Under the pieces are notes generated by a model. The model made no database searches, had not been told where the DNA came from, and was given only the letters and a program-made list of their open reading frames with translations. Source: Methanobrevibacter sp. (lineage in GTDB: Archaea; Methanobacteriota; Methanobacteria; Methanobacteriales; Methanobacteriaceae). Taken from it: DNA of 37,844 nt. Position 1 is the stretch's first letter, and every line of letters starts with the position of its first letter. Location: assembly GCA_030539935.1 (NCBI GenBank), contig JAUNXF010000004.1:1-37844 (forward strand). The letters are read 5' to 3'. The position numbers and the translations under genes are program-made. Below, piece by piece: positions 15,916 through 27,070 of the stretch.

Positions 15916-17955
15916 CTACTCCTCTTCCATCATTTCCAAAATATCTTCACGGTAATATAATCCAATGACAAGAATTATCAATAATACCAATCCTGCAACA
16001 CCAACAACCCTAAAGGTCTCCTCATCAACAGACAATGTCTTGATTGAAGCGGCATCTTCAGCGCTTGATGGGCTTGAAGATGGGTTGGCTGATGGGGAAC
16101 TTGCCACACTTGGAGAGCCAGCTAGACCGGAACTGCCAGACAATACTCCATTTGCATTGATTGAATTTGCACCATTGGAAAGTCCGGAATCGCCAGAGCC
16201 TGACCCAGAACCGGAACCTGACTCATTATTGTACTCATCCGAATAGTCATCAGAGCCATCAAAATCATCACCCTGTGGAGCAATTCCTGCCAATTGATTG
16301 AAGATCTCCTCATAATAGGACATTTCATCAGAGTCTATCTCTTCAAACTGTCCCCATTGGTTAAGGTCCCTATTGTCCTCACCAACATCAAGGTAAGTGT
16401 TGGAGCCTCCTTTGCCTCCGACACCATTGATGTATGCCTTTCCATCAATGAATGTTACAGCATAGGATTTTCCATTTACAGTCAATTTGGCTGAAAAGTT
16501 AGGCAAGTCAGAAATCGCATTTCCATATTTGTCCACTACAGAGAAATAATATTTGCCTCCGCTTTGACGGGATCTGATCTTAAATCCATATTTCATGCCA
16601 ACCCTAGAACATTTATTCTTTGCAAAGTTCTTTCCAATGCTTACAGCATTATCTCCCTTGTTTTGAAGGTCTAAAACGCCATTGTATGAGAAGTAATTGT
16701 TTTCCAGATCCAATTTTCCCTTGGTGCCCTTGAAGTTGTCATCAAACAATATGCCCACTCTGGCATTGTTGTTTACCAGATTCTTCTTGAATGTGAAGTT
16801 ATTTATCCATCCATTTATGATGATTCCATCACCATTGTTGGTAATGGTGTTGTTGTACATGGATACATTGTTTACGGAATATGGCATTTCGATTGCAGTG
16901 TACCATTTTCTTATGACATTGCCTTTAAGATATACATTTGAAGCGTCTTTTCCAAAGAAAATGCCAGTACACATCTTCTTGCTGTCAAAACCGATTATAT
17001 TGTTGTTGAGAATGCTGATTCCCTTTTTGCTTACAATGCTTTTGATATTAATCCCTGTATTGTAGCTGTTTTCAGGAGTTATGTTGTTTTTGGAAATGGA
17101 CACGCCTCCTGAATTGGAAATGTCTATGGCAGTGTCAAACCTTAAGAATACATTATCCCCGATTATTGAATCATAAACTTCATTTAGAACAATGGCTGTC
17201 CGTTTTGTAGATATTCTGTTTTTTGATATTGAAATCTCAGAAACATCCCTTGCATCTACAAAGGACCCTGAAGTGTTGACTGTAAAGCCACTGATATTGG
17301 TTCCAGACCCTCCATATTCTATAGTGAATACAGGAATATTAAAAATATTATTTATTACTGTACCTGATTTGCTTATAATATTTAGAGGCTTGGAAATCCT
17401 TAAATATATATTTTCATAGGAGGAACCTGCAAACTGAATAGTGCTTCCAGCTCTCGCCTTATCAATAATTCCTTGAATAATAGTATTTGCTGAATCGCCA
17501 TAATGGCCAGCATCTTCTATAACAACAAGTTCAGGACTTGACAGAACTGAATTGGAACTTTTGGAATTGCTTAGAATAATCAAATCATTTGAATTAATTT
17601 TTCTTGAATCATCAGCTGAAGACAATGATTTCTTTGAATGACTGCCAATATTCATATCATTTGAATCATATGAATCAATAGTATTTTCATTATCATTGTC
17701 TGAATCAATTAAATTGGATTCATCAGAGCTTTCCAAAGAATCTGAATCAAACAAATTGTTTTCAGACCTTTTAAAAGAGTCTGAATCATCTGAAAGATCA
17801 GGAACATCAAAATCCTCTGATTCAATAGTTAGAGAATTATCCAAACTGATATCTGATGTCATATTGTCAGATACTAGCTCATCTGATGCAACTGCAGATC
17901 CAAGACTTGTGAAGAATATTAAAAATATTAAAATTAATAATATTCTCTCTTTAAT
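15916..17955 (-). CDS. Membrane-anchored adhesin-like protein, beta-helix type, probable AUU start (679 aa)
   Basis: The first in-frame ATG (17862) gives 648 residues starting MTSDISLDNS, inside an acidic Ser/Asp linker and without a secretion signal. Upstream, the same frame encodes a clear signal peptide (KERILLILIFLIFFTSLG then SAVASD). Its only plausible start is ATT at 17955, 7 nt after a perfect AGGAGG. No ATG, GTG or TTG occurs in frame from there upstream to at least 18040. Domains: signal 1-27, Ser/Asp linker to ~150, right-handed beta-helix with NNxI-type turns to ~440, one Ig-like segment (~450-530), a Gly/Ser-rich stalk, and a C-terminal TM (VAGLVLLIILVIGLYY) with an acidic tail. 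Surface protein held by the C-terminal helix; ligand unknown. Confidence 0.85.
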   Translation of the reverse strand: MKERILLILIFLIFFTSLGSAVASDELVSDNMTSDISLDNSLTIESEDFDVPDLSDDSDSFKRSENNLFDSDSLESSDESNLIDSDNDNENTIDSYDSNDMNIGSHSKKSLSSADDSRKINSNDLIILSNSKSSNSVLSSPELVVIEDAGHYGDSANTIIQGIIDKARAGSTIQFAGSSYENIYLRISKPLNIISKSGTVINNIFNIPVFTIEYGGSGTNISGFTVNTSGSFVDARDVSEISISKNRISTKRTAIVLNEVYDSIIGDNVFLRFDTAIDISNSGGVSISKNNITPENSYNTGINIKSIVSKKGISILNNNIIGFDSKKMCTGIFFGKDASNVYLKGNVIRKWYTAIEMPYSVNNVSMYNNTITNNGDGIIINGWINNFTFKKNLVNNNARVGILFDDNFKGTKGKLDLENNYFSYNGVLDLQNKGDNAVSIGKNFAKNKCSRVGMKYGFKIRSRQSGGKYYFSVVDKYGNAISDLPNFSAKLTVNGKSYAVTFIDGKAYINGVGGKGGSNTYLDVGEDNRDLNQWGQFEEIDSDEMSYYEEIFNQLAGIAPQGDDFDGSDDYSDEYNNESGSGSGSGSGDSGLSNGANSINANGVLSGSSGLAGSPSVASSPSANPSSSPSSAEDAASIKTLSVDEETFRVVGVAGLVLLIILVIGLYYREDILEMMEEE

Positions 17956-17968
17956 ATATTCACCTCCT
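17953..17968 (-). promoter_or_regulatory. Shine-Dalgarno and proposed AUU start of the 679-aa adhesin gene
   Basis: AGGAGGTGA at 17968-17960 matches the archaeal 16S tail. ATT at 17955-17953 follows the AGGAGG core after 7 nt and opens a signal peptide. The GTG inside the ribosome site is out of frame. Confidence 0.7.
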
Positions 17969-25274: not shown

Positions 25275-26963
25275 TTAATTTGACCTATCCCTTTTTCTTA
25301 ATAATCCGACAAAAAAGACTAGCAAAACAATGGTTAAAGCTAGAATATATCGAATGTCAAAAGACTTTTGGCTGATAGGATCGTCTTCAAATAATTCAAC
25401 CATTTTCCTATTATTGGAATTCTCACTAACATAAGTGGAATTGACATTATCTGATTTGACACCAGCAGATATGTTATTCTTAGTTTTTGATTGATTGTTC
25501 AACGGATTGCTTGATGCCACATCTGATTGATTGTTCAATGAAGAGGAAGATTCCCCATTATCTGATTTTCCATTTGAATCCTCTGCAGCAGTCTTATTGT
25601 CATCGAATTTCAATCCACCATCATCTGAATTGAAGCGTTCAAAATGCTCATCATAATCTCTGCCGTAATAGTCCTCCAAAATATCAGAGTACCTCTCTAG
25701 CAATGAAAAATCCAGAAGGTCAAACAATCCCATTTTATTCTTAGTGCTAGTTGGCTTAATCCTCTTGGAAACATTATTTGGATCTATAATGGAAGAATCG
25801 GTAGGATCTTCGTCTCCCCAATCATTATCATTGAACTTAGGGAAGAGATATTTTGCATCTGGCCATTTGACAAATACTTCCTGTCCTAAAGGAGAGGAAT
25901 TGTTTGTAATGATATTGTCATGGACATTTATGACAGTTGTTGCATTGAACATTGGCTGTTGTATATAGAATGAACCACCAGTTTCATCAGCTGTATTATT
26001 TACAATAATCGAATTTGTGAGGTTGAGGCTTCCGGAAACCATTATTGCTCCACCATTGGTTCCTGCAGTATTGTTGATGAAAATGCATCTATCAAGACTA
26101 GAGTTTCCAGCCCAACTGTAATAGGCGCCAGCCCACTCATCTGCATGATTATACATAAAAATACAATCTTTTACATTACCATATCCAAAAACGCTTACAC
26201 GAATTGCGCCGCCGTCACGATGGGCAGAGTTATTGATGAAAACGGAATTATATATATCTGAACTTGCATAGCAAGTGGTTACAGCTCCCCCATCATGGTC
26301 TGCATGATTGCCTATGAATAAGGAATTGTTTACAAATAAATAGCTTCTATCAGTTTCATTACCATAATTTGAAATAGCTCCTCCATTGGTTACGCTTAAT
26401 GCAGTGTTATTTATGAAAATACAATTATCTACATAAGCATTTCCAGTTTCTATGCAGATTCCTCCGCCAAAATTATCTGTTTTACCATTGATGAAGGTTA
26501 AATTGTTAAATTTGGCAGTTACACCTATGTCTTGAATGAAAAATATGGTTGACAATTCTTCACCGTCTATAATGACCTCACGTGGATTGCCATTCCCCTG
26601 TAGAGAAATGTTTTTAGTGATATTGATTCCATGCAACTTATATGTGCCTGGTTCAATTAGGATTGTATCTCCATCATTTGCAGTTCCTATCCGATTAATC
26701 AATTCTTGAGAGGATGTATCTGGATTTTGATTAGAAATAGGACTTTTTTCACTTAAACCAGTACTAGAAATTAGATTCTCATTCTCACCAATATCACAAT
26801 TAGAGATAAAATCTAATTCTTCAGAAGCCAGATCTAAATCATCCCCATTAGTTAAATCCTCATTAAGAATATTGCCATCCATACTTTCTGCACTAATTGA
26901 AGGAATCGTAATCAGAATAATTAATAATAAGCTAAATGATATCCATTTAACTTTATCTTTTAT
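25275..26963 (-). CDS. Membrane-anchored adhesin-like protein, beta-helix type, probable AUA start (562 aa)
   Basis: The first in-frame ATG (26882) starts after the signal peptide. The 27 codons upstream read KDKVKWISFSLLLIILIT then IPSISAES, a textbook secretion signal. An in-frame TAA immediately precedes ATA at 26963, and no ATG, GTG or TTG lies between, so initiation at ATA, 7 nt after AGGGAGG, is the natural reading. Domains: signal 1-24, Asp/Glu linker to ~85, right-handed beta-helix at ~90-360 with repeats of the type CIFINNTAxxNGGAI, a linker rich in Asp/Ser/Asn, and a C-terminal TM (YILALTIVLLVFFVGLL) with basic tail RKRDRSN. No Ig-like repeats. Same membrane-anchored class as the 17955 gene. 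Confidence 0.85.
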   Translation of the reverse strand: MKDKVKWISFSLLLIILITIPSISAESMDGNILNEDLTNGDDLDLASEELDFISNCDIGENENLISSTGLSEKSPISNQNPDTSSQELINRIGTANDGDTILIEPGTYKLHGINITKNISLQGNGNPREVIIDGEELSTIFFIQDIGVTAKFNNLTFINGKTDNFGGGICIETGNAYVDNCIFINNTALSVTNGGAISNYGNETDRSYLFVNNSLFIGNHADHDGGAVTTCYASSDIYNSVFINNSAHRDGGAIRVSVFGYGNVKDCIFMYNHADEWAGAYYSWAGNSSLDRCIFINNTAGTNGGAIMVSGSLNLTNSIIVNNTADETGGSFYIQQPMFNATTVINVHDNIITNNSSPLGQEVFVKWPDAKYLFPKFNDNDWGDEDPTDSSIIDPNNVSKRIKPTSTKNKMGLFDLLDFSLLERYSDILEDYYGRDYDEHFERFNSDDGGLKFDDNKTAAEDSNGKSDNGESSSSLNNQSDVASSNPLNNQSKTKNNISAGVKSDNVNSTYVSENSNNRKMVELFEDDPISQKSFDIRYILALTIVLLVFFVGLLRKRDRSN

Positions 26964-26977
26964 TTATACACCTCCCT
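26961..26977 (-). promoter_or_regulatory. Shine-Dalgarno and proposed AUA start of the 562-aa adhesin gene
   Basis: AGGGAGG at 26977-26971, a 7-nt spacer TGTATAA that ends in an in-frame stop codon, then ATA at 26963-26961. Confidence 0.7.
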
Positions 26978-27047
26978 ACAAATCGATTATTCGAATTTAA
27001 ATCAAATTAAATTCAATAATATCAATAATATAATCTTTATTATTTTA

Positions 27048-27070
27048 CAATATATAATATTTTTCATAAC
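27048..27070 (-). promoter_or_regulatory. TATA promoter element of the AUA-start adhesin gene
   Basis: On the minus strand this reads GTTATGAAAAATATTATATA then TTG. It matches the element at 15747-15769 at 20 of 23 positions. It lies about 85-105 nt upstream of the proposed start. Confidence 0.55.

Follow-up and report, generated by a model that had tools for sequence, protein, structure and literature searches.

The gene for a 562-aa adhesin-like protein of Methanobrevibacter sp. is most probably translated from an AUA codon at position 26963, by means of the ordinary initiator tRNA and a strong Shine-Dalgarno (SD) sequence, as one of a selected class of genes in the Methanobacteriales; on the sequence comparisons described here, this reading is given a probability of about 0.88. 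Start codons of this type (AUA, AUC or AUU, abbreviated AUH, or ATH in DNA) appear to be kept by selection across the order, almost only in genes encoding exported proteins, most of them of adhesin or beta-helix type. The gene lies in the window, which is the whole stretch of 37,844 nucleotides that was analysed (assembly GCA_030539935.1, contig JAUNXF010000004.1), and its features are as follows:

25275-26963, minus strand: coding sequence of the 562-aa adhesin-like protein, with Chlam_PMP-type repeats
25299-25349, minus strand: transmembrane segment near the C-terminus (residues 539-555) with the basic tail RKRDR, read directly from the sequence
26880-26882, minus strand: first in-frame ATG, residue 28, past the signal peptide
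26889-26963, minus strand: signal peptide, residues 1-25 (IKDKVKWISFSLLLIILITIPSISA), recognised by eye and hydropathy
26961-26963, minus strand: ATA, proposed near-cognate start codon
26964-26966, minus strand: in-frame TAA directly before ATA, which excludes an in-frame start upstream
26971-26977, minus strand: SD sequence AGGGAGG, a 7-nt run with the following TG (GGGAGGTG context)
27048-27064, minus strand: archaeal promoter-like BRE/TATA element (GAAAAATATTATATATTG), its function suggested by the consensus

The protein matches Chlam_PMP (PF02415) with an E value of 1.1e-9. An earlier note on this DNA had proposed the AUA start from the letters alone, and the elements on which it relied are found as described: the TAA abuts the ATA, AGGGAGG stands exactly 7 nt (TGTATAA) before it, the first 25 residues form a signal peptide of the textbook Sec type, and no ATG, GTG or TTG precedes 26882 in the frame. 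One in-frame CTG is found, at codon 17 within the hydrophobic core of the signal peptide. The export signal is present when the protein is read from ATA and is lost if the start is placed at ATG 26882, which is likely the start that a gene finder would pick. The TATA-like element, located some 85-100 nt upstream of ATA, is kept in the G014, G006, G007 and M1 homologues. Further upstream, the ATG at 27067 was discarded as a candidate: it is placed before the TATA-like element, and so probably outside the transcript, and the homologues do not preserve its frame of 21 residues. In the predicted RNA fold of 26963-26900 (minus strand), the SD pairs with AUUCCUU in the codons of the signal peptide, and masking of the SD by this segment is possible, although the folding of the 5' regions (z -2.5 for this fold and -1.9) is weak evidence, too weak to build on.

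Evidence for the AUA start comes from the homologues, the comparison that the earlier note had called for. This first family was assembled from 20 homologues in public Methanobrevibacter genomes plus nine loci in genomes of relatives, and came to 25 sequences after deduplication. At the start place, 22 of the 25 have a near-cognate codon (ATA in 11, ATC in 10, ATT in 1), two have ATG and one TTG. The first two bases are therefore nearly always fixed as AT while the third one wanders, which is the pattern expected of a start codon that pairs at two positions, and it lends support to the AUA start. In a maximum-likelihood tree at least 11 changes of the start codon were counted, only three of them between near-cognate and canonical codons, all on end branches. 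The start codon is 6-8 nt from AGGAGG in nearly all 25 sequences (in L011 an ATC lies 9 nt away), with SD runs mostly of 7-9 nt (5-6 in four) and spacings of 6-9. The TAA immediately ahead of the start codon is also found in G007, L009/G014, L010/G006, G001 and L012. Some homologues hold an alternative in-frame codon, either a GTG within the SD or an ATG 2-6 codons downstream; in L025 and L026 this extra ATG is two codons downstream of the start place.

The gene is under purifying selection, as judged from the whole-gene dN/dS of 0.13-0.18 against five homologues. This value rules out a pseudogene and opposes the decay that the earlier note had listed, together with silencing, as a possible refutation. 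Codons 2-27 keep 81-92% amino acid identity in the four closest homologues (G007, G014, G006 and G001) and codons 28-90 only 38-52%; this region just past the signal peptide (approximately 26882-26694) evolves fast compared with the 77-86% identity of the close homologues elsewhere. Between the two closest sequences, the synonymous rate is 0.06 in codons 2-27 versus 0.76 in the whole gene, a rough estimate given the short stretch. Such a low rate suggests that these codons may also be constrained as RNA.

A second adhesin gene of the same kind is found in the window:

15916-17955, minus strand: coding sequence of the second adhesin-like protein (679 aa), with a Beta_helix domain and a C-terminal transmembrane segment
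17953-17955, minus strand: ATT, near-cognate start codon of this protein
17960-17968, minus strand: 9-nt SD sequence AGGAGGTGA, 7 nt (counted from AGGAGG) before ATT

The 679-aa protein matches Beta_helix (PF13229, E 6.6e-16), and its signal peptide, read from ATT 17955, is IKERILLILIFLIFFTSLGSAVA. The codon at its start place is ATT in eight species and ATC in one, and ATG is found in none of these nine. In G007 and G014 as well, some 8-10 kb separate the two adhesin genes. The AUA gene had been called the cleanest case in the window, a fair description of it, but the ATT gene has the stronger SD. What had escaped the earlier reader is that the AUA gene belongs to a class, which includes this second gene and dozens of genes for exported proteins across the order.

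A third family, consisting of a beta-helix protein from a different family within the order (f2/g2, with genome sizes of 1.6-1.8 Mb), has ATT in all seven carriers, two of them in single-contig genomes. That such starts are more than chance is also indicated by about 0.7 Mb of sequence sampled without selection, composed of the window, 20 stretches of its genome and 20 stretches of G003. The modal spacing between SD and ATG in this sample is 7 (25 of 42 ATG starts), and ATH codons lacking a nearby canonical start occur at spacing 7 only, in three cases, all of them with signal peptides. The pattern AGGAGGTG-N(4-6)-ATH-AAR, searched across 115 genomes of the order, opened 49 separate frames that are 60 codons or longer (ATA 18, ATT 17, ATC 14), and 45 of these frames begin with a signal-peptide-like N-terminus, called by a simple rule of hydropathy and charge. 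The frames come from nine or more genera within one family, these genera being partly deduced from kinship codes. Because a frame was matched only if its second codon was AAR and its SD the exact 8-nt sequence, these numbers give neither the full count nor the true frequency of AUH starts.

ATG and ACH versions of the pattern served as yardsticks, and a reversed-pattern control was set aside, the reversed motif being frequent in coding DNA. With ATG, 7 of 21 long frames are signal-peptide-like (30 of the 49 matches examined); the difference from ATH gives a Fisher p of about 1e-6, which is only nominal since related genomes are not independent. The ACH version yielded 16 matches and three long frames, none with a convincing start. 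In the AUH genes the codon class is kept, the SD is at a working distance and, in the AUA gene and five close homologues with TAA directly before the start codon, no canonical in-frame start is found upstream.

Some other frames encountered during these searches deserve mention. In the window's own genome (L085, G000 contig C29), an ORF from about position 833 has TTGAGGTGAAAATATT and then the signal peptide STKNKALLLLILSLIVFSMASVSA at the head of a 982-codon frame, so that a near-cognate start is probable there. At L119 (G020:C1:1466650-1466668, minus strand), there is a 272-codon frame, opened by AGGAGGTGATATTATTAAG, whose NAD-binding-like N-terminus (IKVGFIGFGEVAS) has no signal peptide; this is possibly an AUU start in a cytoplasmic enzyme. 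Finally, the plus-strand ORF at about 11903-13112 of L101 (G003:C1:380001-400000) shows TTGGAGGTCTTTTTCTG and no canonical in-frame start upstream; it is possible that a CTG starts a protein beginning LYNFNENTNSN.

In the mechanism proposed, the initiator tRNA charged with methionine (anticodon CAU) would pair with the A and U of the codon, and a mismatch at position three would be tolerated because the SD, long (7-9 nt) and optimally spaced, anchors the 30S subunit. The product would begin with Met-Lys, methionine being the presumed first residue, and would be exported by the Sec system after cleavage of the signal peptide. By analogy with infC and sigR (see below), the weak start would limit or regulate the synthesis of the surface protein, for instance through the archaeal initiation-fidelity factors aIF1 and aIF1A. 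In bacteria such starts are held down by IF3, a factor that archaea are not known to have; aIF1 and aIF1A are present in archaea. It has been reported that proteins with non-AUG starts become more abundant in H. volcanii when the rRNA methylase KsgA/Dim1 is lost (PMC7897474), which shows that discrimination between start codons in archaea can be tuned. A broader proposal, in which AUH starts are a deliberate, order-wide mark of surface-protein mRNAs, the strong SD and the mismatch together placing the adhesins under the fidelity factors as a translational regulon, is speculative and rather unlikely.

Several other readings of the start must be weighed against AUA 26963. That of a sequencing or assembly error, with G as the true base, draws on the fact that the window comes from an assembly of 154 contigs with about 75% completeness, and the earlier note had allowed for a correction to ATG. 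Such a correction does not hold, as ATC stands at the start place in the homologue from G003, whose genome is one contig of 2,937,203 bp. Draft errors do not explain near-cognate codons with a varying third base in 22 of 25 independent homologues, single-contig genomes included; for the class this reading is already refuted, and for the gene its probability is negligible. A start at ATG 26882, giving a protein devoid of signal peptide as gene finders would annotate it, has in its favour that it is the first canonical start in frame, but it is very improbable: this ATG is replaced by ATT or ATA in close homologues, the codons ahead of it are conserved as a signal peptide, no SD was found ahead of it, and the C-terminal membrane anchor calls for an export signal that its product lacks. 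It is also highly unlikely that translation starts at a GTG in the SD or upstream, the frame being reached by frameshift or by re-initiation (from GTG TAT AAA TAA, which overlaps the ATA). A GTG is indeed embedded in AGGAGGTG and is in frame 9 nt upstream in several homologues; nevertheless, its frame relative to the gene varies from one homologue to the next, while AT-N is always in frame and at a fixed spacing, the stop of the mini-frame is lost in the ATC homologues, and in two homologues the AUH position itself is occupied by ATG.

Two more readings accept the AUH codon as the start and differ from the proposed mechanism in how it is read or what it does. A dedicated initiator tRNA, or one with a modified anticodon, could read AUA, AUC and AUU as starts. 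A modified CAU tRNA for AUA exists in archaea and all three codons are in use, but the tRNA loci scanned in G003 (part of the tRNA matches) include tRNA-Met(CAT) genes and none with an unexpected anticodon, and three different third bases are more simply understood as tolerance of a third-base mismatch; this reading is highly unlikely. As a separate observation, a tRNA-like gene at L055 2747-2821 (G000 contig C61), to which ARAGORN assigned the two-base anticodon 'ca', is probably a poorly folded ordinary tRNA. The other reading comes close to an even chance: the AUH start would be real but free of regulation, a static brake on expression that is offset by the strong SD. In its favour, SD runs of 7-9 nt go with AUH and no ATG gene of the sample of about 0.7 Mb reached an 8-nt run; against it, the restriction of AUH to exported proteins in different genera points to a common reason, although regulation is not proven thereby.

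Near-cognate initiation is known from other systems. The infC gene, which codes for IF3, starts with AUU in E. coli and ATC in Streptomyces and is repressed by IF3 (PMC5472188). It has in common with the genes described here a conserved start codon of AUH type, but its product is a self-controlled cytoplasmic initiation factor of bacteria, whereas here a class of exported archaeal surface proteins is concerned. The sigR gene of Streptomyces has a conserved GTC start that was mis-annotated, limits the amount of protein and is controlled by IF3 (PMC5472188); this is one bacterial gene with GTC, in contrast to many gene families with AUA, AUC and AUU. Archaeal GUG and UUG starts likewise use the initiator tRNA with one mismatch, and the SD is more conserved for UUG than for AUG (Belinky et al., PMC5622118). 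In the same study, 61,358 reconstructed ancestral AUG starts from 36 prokaryote groups gave a single change to AUU, which makes families standing at AUH exceptional: what was there a lone change is here the standing state of whole gene families.

The adhesin-like proteins described from Methanobrevibacter and Methanosphaera (PMC2812497, PMC11532034) share size, beta-helix/PMP-type repeats, membrane anchor and genus with those of the window, and 105 of them were counted in the genome paper of M. ruminantium; in neither PMC2812497 nor PMC11532034 was anything found about the codons at which they start. Some adhesins have been reported to be devoid of an N-terminal membrane domain or anchor, possibly through partial annotation (PMC11532034). 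Wrong start calls would yield exactly such proteins, and mis-annotated AUH starts may account for some of them. No report of a class of AUH starts in archaea or in methanogen adhesins was found in the literature searched, so that its standing use in the exported-protein genes of an archaeal order is, as far as could be found, new.

If these results are confirmed, archaeal ribosomes routinely start on AUA, AUC and AUU in nature, and the fidelity of initiation governed by aIF1 and aIF1A would become open to study on natural mRNAs. Besides, it would follow that annotations of the adhesins from rumen and gut methanogens, which have been proposed as targets for vaccines and methane mitigation (PMC2812497), often lose the signal peptide.
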